Assembly (NCBI RefSeq): GCF_003234855.1
Contig: NZ_QKTO01000003.1
Span: forward strand, 248,001 to 312,000
Direction: 5' to 3'
DNA length: 64,000 nt
Origin: Curtobacterium sp. MCBD17_032
GTDB lineage: Bacteria; Actinomycetota; Actinomycetes; Actinomycetales; Microbacteriaceae
The position numbers were made by a program, and so were the translations under genes. Of the stretch, positions 1 to 32,107 are shown in pieces. Position 1 is the first letter of the stretch. The number at the start of each line of letters is the position of its first letter. Under the pieces are notes generated by a model, which made no database searches, had not been told where the DNA came from, and saw only the letters and a program-made list of their open reading frames with translations.

Positions 1-122
1 GTGCCGACGGCGCCGGCGCGCTTGGCCATGTCCAGCGCGAACGAGATGAACGCGATGACGTAGACCGCCATCGCGGAGTACGTCAGGACCACCGAGTAGG
101 TGGCGAGTGTGGTCGTGTTCAC
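1..122 (-). CDS. ccsB: CcsA/CcsB-type cytochrome c assembly protein, N-terminal fragment
   Basis: Only the first 40 codons lie in the window; the gene starts with GTG at 122 and runs off the left edge. The visible part begins VNTTTLATYSVVL and contains a hydrophobic stretch (TYSAMAVYVIAFISFAL), as expected for the first membrane helix of this multi-helix family. With ResB the protein forms the System II cytochrome c synthetase, which moves heme across the membrane and attaches it to apocytochromes. The GTG overlaps the resB stop by four bases (119-122), so translation is probably coupled. The call rests mostly on position, as last gene of the phosphatase-thioredoxin-ccdA-resB-ccsB order also found in mycobacteria. 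Confidence 0.75.
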   Translation of the reverse strand, partial: MNTTTLATYSVVLTYSAMAVYVIAFISFALDMAKRAGAVG

Positions 123-1942
123 TGGGCGATCCTAACTCCGAGGTCCGACATGTGCCGCTGGGCGATATCCGCAACCGCCCGCTCGAGGTTCGGGTCCTCG
201 CCGCGGGCCAGACCCGCGTACTCGAGGTCGAACTCCCCGTGCTCCGCCCCGGTCCGGCGCACGGCCTTGACCCACACGCGTCGACGCGGGACGAACAGCG
301 AGGTGAGCAGGCCGAGCACCGACAGGATCGCGAACGCGGCGACCCAGAGCTGCGACGGGTCGTGGTGCACGTCGAGCGAGACGTACCGCTTCACACCGTC
401 GAACGTGATCGAGCCGGCGCCGTCCGGGAGCTGCTTCGTCTCGCCGGGCTTCATCGAGATGCTCGGGGCGTCCGACTGCCGACCGGCGATCTGCGTCAGG
501 CCCTTCGTCGAGAGCTGGTACACGCTCTGCGGCACACCGTCGTCGAGCCCGAGGTCGCCGGTGTACACCTGCAGCGACAGCATCGGGTTCTCGGTGTCCG
601 GGTAGGCCGACGCGAACGCACCGGAGCCCTGCTTGACCGCGGTCGGGTAGAAGAAGCCGATCATGCCGAGCTGGTCGGGCGACGCGTCCGGGACCTTGAT
701 GACACCCGTCGAGGTGTAGTTCGCGTCCTCGGGCAGGAACGGCACGACGTCCTGGAACGCCACGTCGCCCTCGCCGTCGCGCACGGTGACCTGCATCGCG
801 TAGCCGTTGCCGAGCAGGTACACGTTCGTCCCGCCGATCGCGAGCGGTTCGTTCACGCCGAGCCGGCTCGTCTCCTCCGCACCGTCCTGCGTCCGTGCGG
901 TCACGGTCGCCGAGTAGTCGGTGGCCTGTCCGAGCGCGTCGAGGTTGGTCTCCTCGTACTTCGTCTCGAAGTCGTCGAGCGTCAGGTTGTAGCCCTGGAG
1001 GTCCGACTGCGAGAACCAACGACCGGGGTTGAAGGAGTCGTAGGAGCCGAGGACGTTCGTGAAGGTCTGCCCCTCGACGAGCAGGCGCTGCCCGGTGTAG
1101 CTGAAGCCGCCGCCGAGGCCGACGGCCAGGAGCACACCCACGAGGGCCGCGTGGAACACCAGGTTGCCGGTCTCGCGCAGGTACCCGCGCTCGGCGCTGA
1201 CGGAGTCCCCGAACCGCTCGACGCGGTAGCCGGAGCGCTTCAGCTGCACCATCGCGCTCGTCACGGCGTGGTCGACGGACGGGAGGCCCGGGGTCGGGTC
1301 CGCCCCGCCGGTCGCGGAGTCCTCACGGGCACCGCGGTCCGTCCCGCCGGTCGTGGTGTTCCCGGCGGCACCGGCGTCCGTCACGCCGGTCGCGGTGTCC
1401 GCGCGGGCACCGACGGTCTCGGGGGTCACCGCCACCGAGTGGAACCCGGCGAGACGACCGAGGCGCGCCGGCGTCCTCGGGGGACGCGTCCGCAGCGCCT
1501 GCCAGTGGTGGCGGGTCCGCGGCACGATGCAGCCGATGAGCGACACGAAGAGCAGCAGGTAGATCGCCGAGAACCAGACCGACGTGTAGGTGTCGAACAC
1601 CTGCAGCTTGTCGAGGACCGGGAACAGCGCCGGGTGGTCGTTCTCGTACTGCACGACACCGTTCGGGTCCGCCTGCCGCTGCGGCACGAGCGAGCCCGGG
1701 ATGGCCGCGAGCGCGAGCAGCATGAGCAGGAAGAGCGCCGTCCGCATGCTCGTCAGCTGCCGCCAGGCGAAGCGGAGGTACCCGACGACCCCGAGCTTCG
1801 GCTGCGCGATGCCGTCGTCCGGTGCGCTCGACGCGACCGGGGTGCCGTCGACGTGGTCGGACGGTCGCTGGGGGTCCGACGACCGGTCGACCCCGGTCTC
1901 GTCGACCACGTCGTCCTCGTTCCTGTCAGACCGCGGGGACAA
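119..1942 (-). CDS. resB: cytochrome c biogenesis protein ResB
   Basis: This 607-residue protein matches the ResB (Ccs1) family, the partner of CcsB in System II heme attachment. Hydrophobic helices appear near residues 66-88, 120-141, 260-280 and 530-550; the long stretch between the last two would form the extracytoplasmic domain seen in ResB. The N-terminal 50 residues are acidic and disordered-looking. Residues about 176-218 are a Thr/Gly/Ala-rich low-complexity insert between helices two and three, encoded by GC-rich near-repeats, which is unusual for the family. The start overlaps the end of ccdA by 17 bases and the stop overlaps ccsB by four, so it belongs to the same transcript. Confidence 0.9.
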   Translation of the reverse strand: MSPRSDRNEDDVVDETGVDRSSDPQRPSDHVDGTPVASSAPDDGIAQPKLGVVGYLRFAWRQLTSMRTALFLLMLLALAAIPGSLVPQRQADPNGVVQYENDHPALFPVLDKLQVFDTYTSVWFSAIYLLLFVSLIGCIVPRTRHHWQALRTRPPRTPARLGRLAGFHSVAVTPETVGARADTATGVTDAGAAGNTTTGGTDRGAREDSATGGADPTPGLPSVDHAVTSAMVQLKRSGYRVERFGDSVSAERGYLRETGNLVFHAALVGVLLAVGLGGGFSYTGQRLLVEGQTFTNVLGSYDSFNPGRWFSQSDLQGYNLTLDDFETKYEETNLDALGQATDYSATVTARTQDGAEETSRLGVNEPLAIGGTNVYLLGNGYAMQVTVRDGEGDVAFQDVVPFLPEDANYTSTGVIKVPDASPDQLGMIGFFYPTAVKQGSGAFASAYPDTENPMLSLQVYTGDLGLDDGVPQSVYQLSTKGLTQIAGRQSDAPSISMKPGETKQLPDGAGSITFDGVKRYVSLDVHHDPSQLWVAAFAILSVLGLLTSLFVPRRRVWVKAVRRTGAEHGEFDLEYAGLARGEDPNLERAVADIAQRHMSDLGVRIAQ

Positions 1943-26622: not shown

Positions 26623-27305
26623 GCGTGGTTCCCTTCGGTGTGGGCGGCGTCGGCCGTCCGGTCGGCCGCGTCCAGCCAAGCTGCCAACGCGGCGATGGTG
26701 ATGACGGGCACGCCCTCGCGTGCCCCGAGGGCGACGAGCTGCGGGAGGCGCATCATGTCCCCGCGCTCGTCGACGATCTCGCAGATCGCCGCGGCCGGCC
26801 GCAGCCCCGCGGCCGTGACGAGGTCGATCGCGGCCTCGGTGTGTCCTGCGCGCTCCCGGACCCCGCCCGGTCGGGCACGGAGCGGGACGATGTGCCCGGG
26901 GCGGTGCAGGTCCTCCCGCACGGAGCCCGGGTCGGCGAGCACCCGGAGCGTCCGGGCCCGGTCGTGTGCGCTGATGCCCGTGGTGACCCCGACGGCAGCG
27001 TCCACGGTCACTGTGTAGGCCGTGCCGCGGACGTCCTCGTTGTGCTCGACCATCGGCGGCAGGTCGAGGGCGTCGGCGATCACGGCACTGACCGGGGCGC
27101 AGATGAAGCCGGACGAGTGCGCCACCGTCCAGGCGATCCACTCCGGGGACGCGAGCTCTGCAGCGAGGACGACGTCCCCCTCGTTCTCGCGGCGCTCGTC
27201 GTCGGCGACGATGACCGGCCGTCCGGTGGCGATCGCGGCGAGGGCGTCCTCGACGGTGGACAGCCCGGTGGTGTCAGTCGTGGTGGGGGCGGTCTCGGCG
27301 GCCAT
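26619..27305 (-). CDS. ribB: 3,4-dihydroxy-2-butanone 4-phosphate synthase (stand-alone RibB)
   Basis: The 228-residue enzyme turns ribulose 5-phosphate into the four-carbon unit for lumazine. The RibB signature is clear: [20 protein letters not shown] near residue 30 and later [11 protein letters not shown] and [19 protein letters not shown]. Actinobacteria usually carry a bifunctional RibBA fused to GTP cyclohydrolase II; here the protein stops after RibB, and no RibA domain is found in this operon. The ATG at 27305 shares one base with the ribE stop. Confidence 0.94.
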
Positions 27306-27964
27306 CACCGGGCCTCCGTCGCGGAGCCGACCGCGGTCGGGGTACCGGCAGCCGCGTCGAGGCGCAGCATGCGGCGGACGTGTCGCGCCAGGACGTCGGT
27401 CTCGACGTTGACCCGGTCGCCGGGCGTCCGTGCGCCGAGGGTCGTCGCGGCGAGCGTCTCGGGGATGAGACTGACCTCGAACCAGGCGGCGTCGGGCGCG
27501 ACCGACTCCGGGGACACCGCACTGACGGTGAGCGAGACACCGTCGATCGCGATCGAGCCCTTGTCGACCACGAGCGGGCTCAGCTCCGGCGTCAGGGCGA
27601 ACCGCACCCGTCGCCATCCGTCGCCGTCGTCGGTCGCGAGCACCGTCGCCGTGCCGTCGATGTGCCCCTGCACGATGTGCCCGCCGAGCCGGTCCCCCAC
27701 CGAAGCAGCTCGCTCCAGGTTGACGCGGTCGCCGGCTCGGAGCGACCCGTGCGCGCTCATGTCGAGCGTCTGTCTCATGACGAACGCCGTGAAGGTCTCC
27801 GGGGTCTGCTCGACCACGGTCAGGCAGACGCCCGAGACCGAGATCGAGTCGCCGTGCCGTGCGTCGGAGACGACGAGCGGACCGCGGACGGTCAGGGCGA
27901 CGGAGTCGCCGCGCTCGTCGACGGCGGTGACGGTGCCGAGTTCCTCGATGATGCCGGTGAACAC
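27305..27964 (-). CDS. ribE: riboflavin synthase alpha chain
   Basis: Riboflavin synthase dismutates two lumazines to riboflavin. The 219-residue protein shows the expected internal duplication: [12 protein letters not shown] with [20 protein letters not shown] in the first half, and [13 protein letters not shown] with [17 protein letters not shown] in the second. The start is GTG at 27964, with GAGAGG six bases upstream. It is the first gene of the operon behind the FMN riboswitch, which probably controls access to this ribosome site. Confidence 0.95.
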
Positions 27965-28049: not shown

Positions 28050-28190
28050 TCAGCGCTTCCTCCCATCCGGACTTTCACCGTCGGTCCTGGGATCGCACCA
28101 GGTCAACCCCGAACCGGGCGGACCCGCTTCGGCGCTCGTGGACTGTCACCACCGGTTCGGACTTGCACCGACCCCGGAGCGCTTGCGTGC
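28050..28190 (-). promoter_or_regulatory. FMN riboswitch (RFN element)
   Basis: On the minus strand the conserved RFN blocks are seen in order: CGGGGTCGGTGCAAGTCCGA, ACCGGTGGTGACAGTCCACG, and near the 3' end GGACCGACGGTGAAAGTCCG followed by GATGGGAGGAAGCGC, which closes the P1 stem with AAGCGCTCC at the 5' end. It binds FMN and shuts off riboflavin synthesis. The roughly 85 bases between it and the ribE GTG can form a hairpin, so control is by termination or by hiding the ribosome site; I cannot tell which. Confidence 0.93.
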
Positions 28191-28412: not shown

Positions 28413-30530
28413 TCAGTGGCGGCGCCGCAGGGTCAGCGTCCCCAGACCGGCGAGCAGCAGCAGGACCGCCGCCAGTGCCGGGAGCGCCGGGCTGCCCGCA
28501 CCCGTGTACGCGAGGGTGCCGGCGGTGCCCACCGTCGCCGGTGCACCGGTCGCTGCGCGTGCTGCCGGGGCGGAGGACGCGAGGGTCGCGGTCGACCGGG
28601 CCACGTCCGCCGTCACGACCGGGATCGTGCCGGCATCGACGAGCGGGGTGGTGCCAGCACTCGGGATCACGCCGACGATCGGGACCGTGCCGGTGCCCGG
28701 GGTGCTGCCGGTGCCACCGGGCGTGGTGCCGTTGTCCGGCGTCGAGCCCGGGTCGGTGTCCGGCGTCGAGCCCGGGTCGGTGCCGGGGTCCGTGCCGGGC
28801 GTGGTGCCGGGGTCCGTGCCGGGGTCGGTGCCGGGCGTGGTGCCCGGCGTGGTGCCGGTGGCCGGGGTCGTGGTGCCGTCACCGATGATGCCGATGCCGT
28901 TGTCGCCGACCGTGACCGGGACGTTCACCACCGGGACGATCTGCGTCCCCGAACCGATGCCGCCCCCACCCGAGGTCGTGCCACCGGCCACGGGAGCGGT
29001 GCCGGTCCCGGTCGCCGGGGTCGTGCCCGCCGTCGAACCACCGGTGCTCGTGCCGTCACCGACGACACCGATCCCGTTGCCACCGACCGTCACCGGAACC
29101 CTCACCACCGGGACGATCTGCGTCCCAGACCCGATCCCGTCCTCACCCGAGGTCGTGCCGCCCGCTGTCGGAGCGGTGCCGGTCCCCGTCGCCGGGGTCG
29201 TGCCCGCCGTGGCGCCACCGGTGCTCGTGCCGTCACCGACGACACCGATCCCGTTGCCACCGACCGTCACCGGGATCGACACCACCGGCGACACCTGCGT
29301 GCCGGAACCGATGCCGTCCTCACCCGAGGTCGTCCCACCCGCTGTCGGAGCGGTGCCGGTCCCCGTCGCCGGGGTCGCGCCCACCGTCGAGCCACCGGTG
29401 CTCGTGCCGTCACCGACGACACCGATCCCGTTGCCACCGACCGTCACCGGGACGTTCACCACCGGGACCATCTGCGTCCCCGAACCGATGCCGTCCTCAC
29501 CCGAGGTCGTCCCACCGGCCACGGGAGCGGTGCCGGTCCCGGTCGCCGGGGTCGTACCCGCCGTCGAGCCACCGGTGCTCGTGCCATCACCGACGACACC
29601 GATCCCGTTGCCCGTCACCGTGATCGGGACCGAGACGGTGCCGAGCAACTGCGTGCCGGAGATGAGTCCGTCCGACCCGGAGGTCGAACCGCTCGTCGAC
29701 CCACCCGTCGGTGCGACCGGCGACGCGGCGTGTCCGGTCGCCGTTCCGTCCCCGAGGACGCCGATCCCGTTGCCCGAGACCGTGATGGGGACCGTGACGT
29801 CCGGCAGGACCTGGGTGCCCGAGAGCACACCGTCCGACCCGGACGTCGTCCCGCTCGACCCGCTCGACCCGCTCGTCCCGCTCGACCCGCTCGTCTGGGC
29901 ACCGGCCGGAGCAGCCGGAGCCGGGGACGACCCGGGCGTGGTCGCGACGGCGTCGCCGAGGACGCCGGCGGCGTTGCCGGTCGCGGTGACCGGAGCGTCG
30001 ACCGTTCCCGCGACCTGGGTGCCGGAGAGCAGCCCGTCCTCGCCGGACGTCGCCGGCGCAGGGGCCGGAGGCGCCGGAGCAGGCGCAGGAACCGGAGCCG
30101 CAGGCGCAGGCGCAGGAGCAGGAGCAGGCGCAGCCGGAGCCGCAGGGGCCGGTGCGGCCACCGCGTCACCGACGACACCGACGGCGTTGCCGGTCACCGC
30201 GACGGGAGCGCTGACGTCGGGCACGACCTGCGTGCCGGAGGCAAGACCGTCGGTCCCGCTGGTGGTGGGAGCAGGTGCCGCCGGTGCCGCCGGTGCAGGC
30301 GGTGCCGGGGCCGGGGCCGGGGTGGCCGCGGTCGCGACCGCGTCACCGACGATGCCGAAGGCGTTGCGGGTGACGGAAACGGGCGCGTCGACGGTCGGCG
30401 CGACCTGGGTTCCGGAGGCGGTGCCGTCCTCGCCGGTGGTCGTCGCCGCGTTCGCCGCGACGGCTCCGCCGAAGGTCAGCCCGCCCACGCAGAGGGCGAA
30501 CCACAGCCCCCGGGAGACGTTCTTGTTCAT
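28413..30530 (-). CDS. secreted protein with nine chaplin-like repeats and LAYTG sorting signal
   Basis: The 705-residue protein has a signal peptide (MNKNVSRGLWFALCVGGLTF, cleavage after AANA near residue 28), then nine repeats of about 32 residues, starting near 33, 92, 162, 231, 286, 343, 402, 461 and 520. A typical repeat reads SGTQVVPDVSAPVAVTGNAV and ends GVVGDA. This matches the strand pattern of Streptomyces chaplin domains, without their cysteines. The last four units have an exact 59-residue period. A Thr/Pro/Asp-rich stretch (553-610) could span the wall; LAYTG (673-677), a hydrophobic helix and RRRH form a sorting signal of the LAXTG type used by class E sortases. Role inferred: wall-anchored, possibly amyloid-forming surface protein. 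Confidence 0.88.
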   Translation of the reverse strand: MNKNVSRGLWFALCVGGLTFGGAVAANAATTTGEDGTASGTQVAPTVDAPVSVTRNAFGIVGDAVATAATPAPAPAPPAPAAPAAPAPTTSGTDGLASGTQVVPDVSAPVAVTGNAVGVVGDAVAAPAPAAPAAPAPAPAPAPAAPVPAPAPAPPAPAPATSGEDGLLSGTQVAGTVDAPVTATGNAAGVLGDAVATTPGSSPAPAAPAGAQTSGSSGTSGSSGSSGTTSGSDGVLSGTQVLPDVTVPITVSGNGIGVLGDGTATGHAASPVAPTGGSTSGSTSGSDGLISGTQLLGTVSVPITVTGNGIGVVGDGTSTGGSTAGTTPATGTGTAPVAGGTTSGEDGIGSGTQMVPVVNVPVTVGGNGIGVVGDGTSTGGSTVGATPATGTGTAPTAGGTTSGEDGIGSGTQVSPVVSIPVTVGGNGIGVVGDGTSTGGATAGTTPATGTGTAPTAGGTTSGEDGIGSGTQIVPVVRVPVTVGGNGIGVVGDGTSTGGSTAGTTPATGTGTAPVAGGTTSGGGGIGSGTQIVPVVNVPVTVGDNGIGIIGDGTTTPATGTTPGTTPGTDPGTDPGTTPGTDPGTDPGSTPDTDPGSTPDNGTTPGGTGSTPGTGTVPIVGVIPSAGTTPLVDAGTIPVVTADVARSTATLASSAPAARAATGAPATVGTAGTLAYTGAGSPALPALAAVLLLLAGLGTLTLRRRH

Positions 30531-30619
30531 GGTCGTTCACTCCTGATCGAGATGGATGGTCGACCGCACACAGAGGCGGTCGGAGGCGCGTCCTGCCGTG
30601 ACGGGCAGGTGCGCCGATC

Positions 30620-32107
30620 TCAATCGGGAGCGACGTCGTGGTCACCGACGAGCGAAGCCGGGACGGCATCGTCGGTGACCGGACCGCGGAGGCCCGCGGC
30701 GAGGGGGGAGGTCTGCACCTCGGCACCGACGGTACCGAGGACGTTCGCGCCGGCGGAGCCACCCGCGGCCGAGCCGCCGACGGTGCCTCCGGTCGCGCTG
30801 TCGAACGGCAGCCGGATGGGGGCGCCGCCGTCCGGGAGGACGAGGGCCACGCCGCCGAGCGTGGCCACCGCGGGGACCGGGCTGAGCACGTCGGTCGTGA
30901 CCGGCTCGGCGGTCGTCCGGGACGCGACGTCCGCCGTGGTCGTCGCGCGGCGGTCTGCGCCAGCGGAGGTCGTCGGTGCGTCGTCCGTCGTCAGGCGTGC
31001 GTCCGCCCCGAGGCCCCGACCGTCCTCGGGGAGGACGACGACCTCGCGGTCGACCGGCAGCACCGGGGTCCCGGGGAGCTGCGGCCCGACGACCGGGACC
31101 TCGGGCAGCGCGGAGCCGGAGCCGGGGAGCACCGGGCCGACGGGGAGGTCGACGACGGGGAGCGGGCCTCCCGGCAGGACGCCACCGACGGACGGCAGCC
31201 CGCCGATGACCCCGGGCACCTCGGCGACCGCGTCCGGCACGTCGGCGACGACGTCGCCGACCGTGCCGAGGGTCCCGTCGACCACGTCGGTCAGCGGATC
31301 CGTGAGGCCACCGACGGTGTCGTCACCGAGCAGCGCACCGACGACCGGGAGGCTCCCGACCACCCGGTCGACGGTGGCCACGATCGAGGCCACCGGACCG
31401 CCGGCAGTGATCGCCTGCGCGGTCCCGGTGACGGGGACCAGGCCCCCGGAGACGGCGTCGGTGACCGGCCGGGAGGCGTCAGCCGCGCCCGACACGATGC
31501 CGTCGATGAGCGGCGTGTCCGGGCGGGTCAAGGGCTCCGCGGGAGCGCTGGTCGAGGGGCCGACGTATGCGGGCCGGGGGTCGCTCGCCGCGGGATCGGA
31601 GGGCGTCGGAGCCGTCGGTGCCGGGCCCGCGGGTGCCGGGGCGGCGGGCGCCGAGCCGGCGGAGGCCGCCGGGGCCGAGGCGACCGGTGCCGGTGCGACA
31701 GGCGCAGGTGCGACGGGGGCAGGCGCCGGTGCGACCGGGGCAGGTGCGACGGGGGCAGGTGCCGGGGCGACAGGGGCAGGTGCCGGGGCGACCGGCCGCA
31801 GAGCAGGCGCAGCGGGGGCAGGCACAGCACTGCGGACCGGCGCCACGGCACGGTCCACCACGTCGCCGACGCCGCTCGTGACCCGCTGGGCAGCGCCTCC
31901 GACACCGGAGACGACGCCGCCGACCAGCCCGTCGGACCGCGGTGCGACCGCCGTCGACGACCCGGCCCCGAGCAGGGGACCACCGGCTGCCGCCGCAGGG
32001 CGTGCGCCGAGCAGGACCGAGAGCAGCACGACTGCTGCGCCGGTCCCGCAGGCGATGAGCGCCCACCGGAGGACCGCGCGCCAGGGTGCACGCATCGTCG
32101 CGTCCAT
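30620..32107 (-). CDS. secreted Pro/Ala-rich protein, unknown function
   Basis: The 495-residue product starts at an ATG with a strong ribosome site (AGGAGGTGAG) and has a signal sequence (LRWALIACGTGAAVVLLSVL, cleavage near ARPAAA, residue 42). Residues about 95-150 are tandem PAPVA units; the middle is rich in short Val/Gly/Leu stretches ending in D or G (VVGSLPVVGALLGDDTVGG), and the end is low-complexity without a membrane anchor or sorting signal. No family recognised. It precedes the chaplin-like gene by 89 bases on the same strand, so the two are probably one surface operon. Confidence 0.8.
   Translation of the reverse strand: MDATMRAPWRAVLRWALIACGTGAAVVLLSVLLGARPAAAAGGPLLGAGSSTAVAPRSDGLVGGVVSGVGGAAQRVTSGVGDVVDRAVAPVRSAVPAPAAPALRPVAPAPAPVAPAPAPVAPAPVAPAPAPVAPAPVAPAPVASAPAASAGSAPAAPAPAGPAPTAPTPSDPAASDPRPAYVGPSTSAPAEPLTRPDTPLIDGIVSGAADASRPVTDAVSGGLVPVTGTAQAITAGGPVASIVATVDRVVGSLPVVGALLGDDTVGGLTDPLTDVVDGTLGTVGDVVADVPDAVAEVPGVIGGLPSVGGVLPGGPLPVVDLPVGPVLPGSGSALPEVPVVGPQLPGTPVLPVDREVVVLPEDGRGLGADARLTTDDAPTTSAGADRRATTTADVASRTTAEPVTTDVLSPVPAVATLGGVALVLPDGGAPIRLPFDSATGGTVGGSAAGGSAGANVLGTVGAEVQTSPLAAGLRGPVTDDAVPASLVGDHDVAPD

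Follow-up and report, generated by a model that had tools for sequence, protein, structure and literature searches.

Introduction

Chaplins are known mainly from the aerial growth of filamentous actinomycetes, and the locus described here raises the question of what a protein of this type would be doing in Curtobacterium, whose life form is non-filamentous. The locus lies in a stretch of 64,000 nucleotides (nt) from Curtobacterium sp. MCBD17_032 (contig NZ_QKTO01000003.1, positions 248,001 to 312,000), the whole of which we call the window; the gene in question, the repeat gene, encodes a protein of 705 residues with nine repeats and a sorting signal at its C-terminal end, and directly upstream of it lies a second gene, the partner. 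We consider it probable (about 60%) that the repeat protein is anchored to the wall as a cysteine-free surface protein of the chaplin type, that it serves as surface subunit in a cassette of two genes, and that its translation depends on the partner, as judged from sequence comparison and prediction. The cassette of two genes is conserved and has between its genes an RNA element of which we found no description.

A repeat protein related to chaplins

An earlier note on this DNA had described nine repeats between a signal peptide and a Thr/Pro/Asp spacer, followed by LAYTG, a helix and RRRH, all of which are present in the 705-residue open reading frame (Table 1). SGTQ opens the repeats at residues 39, 98, 169, 237, 291, 350, 409, 468 and 527, giving spacings of 59, 71, 68, 54, 59, 59, 59 and 59, so that the four exact 59-residue periods reported in the note are the last four intervals. 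Its claim that the repeats are free of cysteine also agrees with the sequence: the single Cys (residue 14) lies within the signal peptide, and the mature part has none. While the note had the bounds and the architecture of the gene right, it left the strand unstated and missed the upstream partner, the RNA element and a second cassette, which lies on another contig of the same genome and has a repeat gene with 12 repeats. The number of repeats is thus variable, with 9 in one cassette of this genome, 12 in the other and 3 to 10 (counted by script) in 74 named relatives, drawn from 80 named loci that were the best of 256 stretches encoding a relative.

The Pfam family ChpA-C (PF03777) matched the whole repeat protein at 69.5 bits (E 2.1e-19; curated cut-off 21 bits), with nine stretches matched at a permissive threshold, two of which pass E 0.001 on their own. 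Since nine copies of one weak motif sum up, single repeats and profiles were tested separately. Single repeats of the window gene reached 23.7 bits at most against ChpA-C in a search of its own genome. A model built from 23 chaplin domains, taken from large-genome loci of one genus that we take to be Streptomyces, scored at least 12.4 bits in all 75 repeat proteins (the window's and those of the 74 named relatives), compared with a maximum of 6.0 bits among 1500 shuffled proteins; in this whole-protein test the extraction pattern was not applied to the repeat proteins, though the 23-domain model rests on it. When the repeat profile was aligned to the chaplin-domain profile with hhalign, the result was 96.7% (E 3.5e-10, 32 gap-free columns) against 9.4% for the best of 200 column-permuted profiles, it being understood that the 468 repeat units and the 23 chaplin domains were both extracted by motif patterns, which favours agreement between the profiles. 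ChpA-C also matches 27/27 members of our family alignment A1 at E 0.001, which is no independent test because these members were mostly found via ChpA-C or as relatives of its hits. Chance or composition as the source of the chaplin likeness is ruled out by the shuffles and column permutations.

The likeness that the earlier note had proposed is nevertheless incomplete: its homology, sortases and LAXTG signal stood, whereas the third GN and both Cys of the chaplin domain are missing. The aligned part of repeats and chaplin domains is SPGV.SGN.VQ.PV..PVNVCGN.V.VVG, and the alignment stops before the chaplin segment NPAFGN.C (the third GN and the second Cys), which has no counterpart in the repeats; the first Cys is replaced. 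The window repeats have SGTQ at the first GN position and GN at the second (once RN, once DN), so that two of the three GN positions are retained. Cys is present in only 2 of the 468 repeat units from the 75 proteins, all of them 38 residues long, a length that the extraction pattern mostly imposes. We therefore regard the repeats as shortened, cysteine-free chaplin domains. A chaplin in the strict sense has three GN motifs and two Cys per domain (known exceptions to the latter exist), and the window repeats have neither set; the repeat protein is related to chaplins by tested homology, yet it is not a strict-sense chaplin.

An AlphaFold2 model of the repeat protein has a mean predicted local distance difference test (pLDDT) score of 50.9 and a predicted template modelling score (pTM) of 0.48, with 121/705 residues at 70 or above. 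It places short strands in the repeats, at low confidence, and most linkers look disordered; the better-predicted blocks, besides the signal peptide and the C-terminal helix, fall in the repeats. A sequence search against solved structures gave nothing convincing (best E 0.072).

The sorting signal and class E sortases

The C-terminal end of the protein has the features of a class E sortase substrate that the earlier note had read from it, namely LAYTG (of the LAXTG type), a hydrophobic helix (residues 682-704) and the basic RRRH. Among the checks that the note had named were profile similarity to chaplins and a class E sortase gene in the genome, and just as the first was found (see above), so was the second, twice over: NF033747 matches two proteins of the window's genome at 227 and 214.3 bits (cut-off 160). 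Among the 72 named relatives with a complete C-terminus, a script found an LA-x-[TS]-G signal in 64 (67 with a wider pattern). A class E sortase was detected at E 1e-10 in 227 of 249 Microbacteriaceae genomes, including all 54 that are ChpA-C-positive and 173 of the 195 others (lists compared by eye); because so many ChpA-C-negative genomes have the enzyme as well, this co-occurrence is weak support for a link. The NCBIfam family Microco_LAVTG (NF058582) scored the repeat protein at 18.5 bits, under its cut-off of 27. The second sortase gene of the genome (L013:6210-7229, plus strand) lies directly behind a gene for a 916-residue Ala/Ser-rich repeat protein (L013:3463-6213), which carries LAFTG and passes the Microco_LAVTG cut-off at 28.7 bits.

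The partner gene

The partner is a secreted-type, low-complexity protein rich in Val, Pro and Ala, which consists of a signal peptide, a Val/Pro-rich segment, a Pro/Ala/Ser/Gly-rich spacer and a conserved tail, TDDAVPASLVGDHDVAPD. It had no match in Pfam and none above cut-off in NCBIfam. It stands directly upstream of the repeat gene in 42/42 fetched loci (the window, its second copy, 20 of the same genus, 19 of other Microbacteriaceae genera and 1 of another family) and was found in 78 of the 80 named loci, the other two (L145, L162) being cut too close to judge. Of these 78, 74 came from scripts and two (L140, L164) were found by hand, while L171 has a short frame with the tail and L200 a tail ending in PG; L135 and L139, two loci with identical figures, come from one genome. 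Since a frame ending in PD was what the scripts sought, the final PD is there by construction, which is not so for the Pro at -13 (74/74).

At E 1e-5 or better, a model of the tail gave one match per genome in 150 genomes of the family and two only in the window's own, with weaker matches, up to E 0.1, scattered. A general sorting tag is thus not supported, since there is one match per genome and the one genome with two has two cassettes. The final residues of the tail appear to be constrained largely as RNA: the final Pro codon is CCT in 50/65 unique tails, compared with 3/65 at the Pro at -13 (where CCG/CCC is preferred), and in two loci of one genus (L261, L262) the final Asp has become Gly while the Shine-Dalgarno arm of the RNA stem described below shows the corresponding change. 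On these grounds an invariant Pro-Asp as a protein motif was mostly rejected. The upstream part of the tail, D/DxLPxS, looks constrained as protein in Microbacteriaceae, where its third codon positions vary; it is not kept in loci from another family of the order. A fusion of partner and repeat protein by programmed frameshift or readthrough was rejected, as the length of the gap is not constant modulo 3.

Two side observations concern the partner. The ~50 nt before its ATG (32108 to ~32160, minus strand) hardly vary among the window and 19 Curtobacterium-type rows (GGTCAACCACTCTACGTGCGCAGCC.AGATCAGGAGGTGAGCGC); a -10-like TACCGT/TACATT precedes them, and together these may be a conserved promoter and leader. 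In L171 (Curtobacterium flaccumfaciens), the partner is seen only as a 95-residue frame with the tail and the repeat gene loses its frame about 180 codons in, in a manner that does not distinguish a sequencing error from a decayed copy.

An RNA element between the two genes

The gap between partner and repeat gene is 89 nt in the window and mostly 75-125 nt across loci. It is predicted to fold into a stem, P1, that encloses two hairpins, P2 and P3, with the 5' arm of P1 on the end of the partner and its 3' arm on the Shine-Dalgarno sequence of the repeat gene (Table 1). Folding was tested on 72 loci, the window's and 71 named ones from the script-found 74, of which the other three had a miscalled repeat-gene start and were left out. 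P1 had at least 5 pairs in 69 of the 72 minimum-energy folds; at least 10 pairs were formed in 93% of them, compared with 18% of 1440 folds in which the 5' arm was shuffled and 73% in which it was taken from another locus. A descriptor of P2 fitted 54/72 loci, as against 16.3% of 3600 shuffles, and the intergenic sequence folds with great stability (median z -2.83 for the 72 loci). In an alignment of 35 sources that was fitted to the structure, and in which pair counts are thereby inflated, 90.3% of the cells were paired (64.7% when shuffled), changes on both sides (compensatory) occurred in 30/32 pairs, and covariation was 0.608, compared with 0.161 for shuffled and 0.05-0.08 for slid alignments. 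The 69 of 72 folds and the covariation indicate a conserved structure that covers the downstream ribosome-binding site and overlaps the upstream coding sequence.

Covariance models point to the same place. The first, made from 21 Curtobacterium sequences and run over 63 loci (851 kilobases), had its 15 best matches, to E 0.039, all at the junction of the two genes; 12 of these were outside the training set and included other genera and one other family, and its weaker matches include many off-junction. A second model gave 84 matches up to E 0.5 in 82 loci, all at the junction (on either strand) except three (E 0.013, 0.081 and 0.29). The 35 sources of the final alignment were picked for clear sense-strand matches, and all 35 are at the junction. 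At E 0.01 the final model found 69 sense matches at the junction of the 80 named loci, 11 on the opposite strand at the same places and none elsewhere, 27 of these loci being in its training set and 11 having no sense match. Across the 249 family genomes it gave at least 42 matches in 41 genomes, with two only in the window's own, a lower bound because stricter filters were used in the genome-wide search. All 36 matches inspected (30 loci, 5 others and the second copy) sit between a partner tail and a secreted-type gene, and the remaining 6 of the 42 directly follow a tail-model match by coordinates. Outside Microbacteriaceae, loci from another family of the order carry the element as well (L121, L234, L236). 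Rfam had no match up to E 1 in window positions 30500-30660, and in three relatives none at the junction up to E 0.5, with two weak matches elsewhere.

A possible further hairpin, at 30477-30518 on the minus strand (codons 5-18 of the repeat gene, in the signal peptide), is weak: 20/61 sequences reached p < 0.05 against synonymous resampling, and codon 7 is AGA in 29/70 unique sequences.

Table 1. Features of the cassette, with positions in the window (ATG start of the partner at 32107; aa, amino acids or residues of the repeat protein)
Feature	Position	Strand	Description
Repeat gene	28413..30530	minus	705 aa, ATG start; bounds of the open reading frame exact
Repeat protein, signal peptide	aa ~1-28		predicted
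Repeat protein, nine cysteine-free chaplin-type repeats	SGTQ starts within aa 39-527		
Repeat protein, Thr/Pro/Asp spacer	aa ~557-670		
Repeat protein, LAYTG sorting signal	C-terminal end		followed by helix aa 682-704, then RRRH
Partner gene	30620..32107	minus	495 aa; directly upstream of the repeat gene
RNA element	30531..30632	minus	stem P1 enclosing hairpins P2 and P3
P1, 5' arm CTCCCGATTGAGAT	30617..30630	minus	last codons of partner (Asp GAT 30623-30625), stop TGA 30620-30622, three bases
P1, 3' arm ATCTCGATCAGGAG	30540..30553	minus	holds Shine-Dalgarno AGGAG of the repeat gene (30540-30544)
Hairpin P2	30585..30615	minus	outer stem GGCGC/GCGCC, inner stem CCTGCC/GGCAGG, short 3' bulge
Hairpin P3	30561..30582	minus	CGACCGC/GCGGTCG

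Downstream of the repeat gene lies an ordinary flavin mononucleotide (FMN) riboswitch (28051-28184, minus strand, 85.2 bits), upstream of a gene at 27305-27964 that by eye is riboflavin synthase-like.

Distribution

The earlier note had placed the organism within Microbacteriaceae, and the genus is Curtobacterium. In 57/60 Curtobacterium genomes, the window's own included, ChpA-C matched at E 0.01 (36/60 above cut-off); across Microbacteriaceae it matched at E 0.001 in 54/249 genomes, representing 25/85 genera. The latter figure is an underestimate, because of 15 partner-tail matches fetched from genomes without a ChpA-C hit, 7 have a repeat gene behind the partner (by script); the other 8 places were unresolved, different or without a gene found. 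The named relatives lie in Microbacterium, Agromyces, Agreia, Leifsonia, Herbiconiux, Okibacterium, Frigoribacterium and others. Most genera of the family are not known for aerial growth; some, such as Agromyces, branch. At the level of the order 31/347 genomes match ChpA-C, 13 of them outside the family, and in a sample of the phylum 12/296 match (8 of a Streptomyces-like genus, 3 Microbacteriaceae and 1 from another family of the same order).

The RNA element reaches beyond the repeat proteins. In six loci (L245, L254, L258, L273, L274, L275), the same partner tail and RNA element precede a secreted-type protein that keeps its signal peptide and has, in the part seen, a different body without recognisable chaplin-type repeats.

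Proposed mechanism and rival readings

Taken together, these features suggest how the cassette might work. A class E sortase would link the repeat protein to the wall. The repeats may come together as chaplins do, their short hydrophobic strands joining both inside one molecule and from one molecule to the next, to give a hydrophobic or adhesive layer. Ribosomes terminating on the partner would open P1, so that the repeat protein would be made only with or after the partner; the latter may serve as escort, nucleator or spacer for the layer, and an escort or nucleator would then be made before the subunit.

A number of points weigh against this reading. The repeats have neither the Cys nor the third GN that are typical of chaplins; the AlphaFold2 model is of low confidence, with disordered-looking linkers, and Foldseek found no fold match for it in the PDB at E 0.001 or better. 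The amyloid, adhesin and coupling functions are all inferred. MAFFT followed by RNAalifold recovered no common structure and no pairs, so that an alignment based on the structure was needed, with the inflation already mentioned. Wobble in P1 does not favour the sense strand, since A.C mismatches (54, of which 31 are at the three codon third positions) outnumber G.U pairs (19), although P2 and P3 do favour it (27 G.U pairs, 13 A.C). According to the passages concerned of PMC12548453, coupling works best over short gaps, and the 89-nt gap would therefore argue against strong coupling, unless it acts by unfolding. Finally, because the six loci above carry other downstream bodies, the coupling would not be specific to chaplin-type repeats and the module would be broader.

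The repeats could be mere flexible low-complexity wall spacers or adhesin stalks, their chaplin likeness being an old relic and no ordered layer being formed. That 388/705 residues fall below pLDDT 50, that the linkers are rich in Pro, Ala, Thr and Gly, and that the number of repeats varies would all suit such a stalk, which we nonetheless regard as rather unlikely in view of a repeat core that is conserved across genera (468 units of 38 residues, a length largely imposed by the pattern), a profile homology to chaplins far above the controls, and better-predicted blocks that fall in the repeats. A similarly doubtful alternative concerns the RNA, which might act in the processing or stability of the mRNA, for instance as an RNase III site by which the two messages are separated or stabilised, and not as a translational coupler. 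It is common for hairpins stacked between cistrons to determine how much of each mRNA there is relative to the other, and P1 is a long stem within very stable intergenic folds; its arms, however, lie on the last codons and stop of the partner and on the Shine-Dalgarno sequence, a placement that a mere processing site would not need. We think it improbable that P1 is a regulated switch (responding to temperature, a ligand or an RNA-binding protein) by which the repeat gene is controlled whether or not the partner is translated: the conserved multibranch shape, the covarying stems and the riboswitch-like size of ~100 nt would be in keeping with one, but no conserved unpaired stretch resembling a ligand pocket was noticed in the alignments (no specific test was made), Rfam has no match at the junction, and the overlap with the partner's stop fits control by ribosomes more simply. 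We continue to favour a chaplin-type surface protein whose translation would depend on its partner.

Comparison with known systems

The closest known proteins are the long chaplins ChpA-C of Streptomyces (PF03777), which share the signal peptide, repeated domains (SGN..Q.PV..PV.V.GN.V.V.G), the spacer and a LAXTG-type signal, the motif that class E sortases recognise (as described in PMC5148588). They are described with two domains, as opposed to the 3 to 12 repeats (by script) found here, and the upstream partner and RNA element of the Curtobacterium cassette are a further difference. The Streptomyces-like domains carry Cys (with the exception of the second domain in L058) and the third segment NPAFGN.C, whereas the window repeats carry neither. 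Chaplin domain features and cysteine exceptions are treated in the relevant sections of PMC13251363 and PMC7766987, along with PMC5148588: the second domain of ChpB (PMC13251363) and ChpE (PMC7766987), and similarly the second domain in L058, likewise lack the Cys pair. The L058 domain is still full-length, and the passages on ChpB and ChpE do not describe long arrays of such domains.

Other comparisons lie outside Streptomyces. A chaplin-like protein of Arthrobacter chlorophenolicus is also found in a non-sporulating organism (a rod-coccus); its gene was noted by reciprocal BLAST alone, and the passage in question mentions no partner or RNA (PMC4255298). CwpA and CwpB of Actinoplanes missouriensis are likewise hydrophobic surface proteins that depend on a class E sortase, but unlike the Curtobacterium repeats they have, as their authors conclude in the pertinent section, no chaplin domains (PMC13251363). 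For the RNA, the nearest likeness is the coupling of rpmI and rplT in E. coli (+52 nt), in which, according to the section concerned of PMC12548453, translation of the upstream gene is proposed to unfold a structure masking the ribosome-binding site of the downstream one; here, by contrast, there is a covarying three-helix element in many genera of one family and beyond, in a surface-protein cassette for which coupling is a candidate function. Our searches of open-access papers on chaplins outside Streptomyces met with none that, as judged by title or the start of the abstract, concerned this family, the partner or the RNA.

Significance

A 2013 review (PMC4255298) reported chaplin-like genes from Arthrobacter chlorophenolicus and a small number of genera with complex development, and suggested that attachment might be a function older than aerial growth; strains of Clavibacter, Leifsonia and Microbacterium were among the genomes that it listed, and the part concerned names no chaplin for them. 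We now find chaplin-type proteins across Microbacteriaceae, mostly in genera not known for aerial growth, so that the question of whether attachment came before aerial growth becomes testable, and the cassette allows the roles of chaplin-type proteins to be tested outside Streptomyces. The RNA element, supported by covariation and absent from Rfam, is a testable case of possible translational coupling over a long gap; it also suggests that a chaplin-type coat has a partner protein dedicated to it.

The most far-reaching interpretation, which we offer tentatively and hold to be possible at best, is that in unicellular Actinomycetota the cysteine-free chaplin polyrepeat may be a wall-anchored functional-amyloid coat or adhesin, in an assembly cassette gated by an RNA that would allow the polyrepeat to be translated only after a secreted nucleator or escort dedicated to it. 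If this were true, chaplins would be part of an older attachment machinery, and the aerial-growth coat of Streptomyces would be derived from it.

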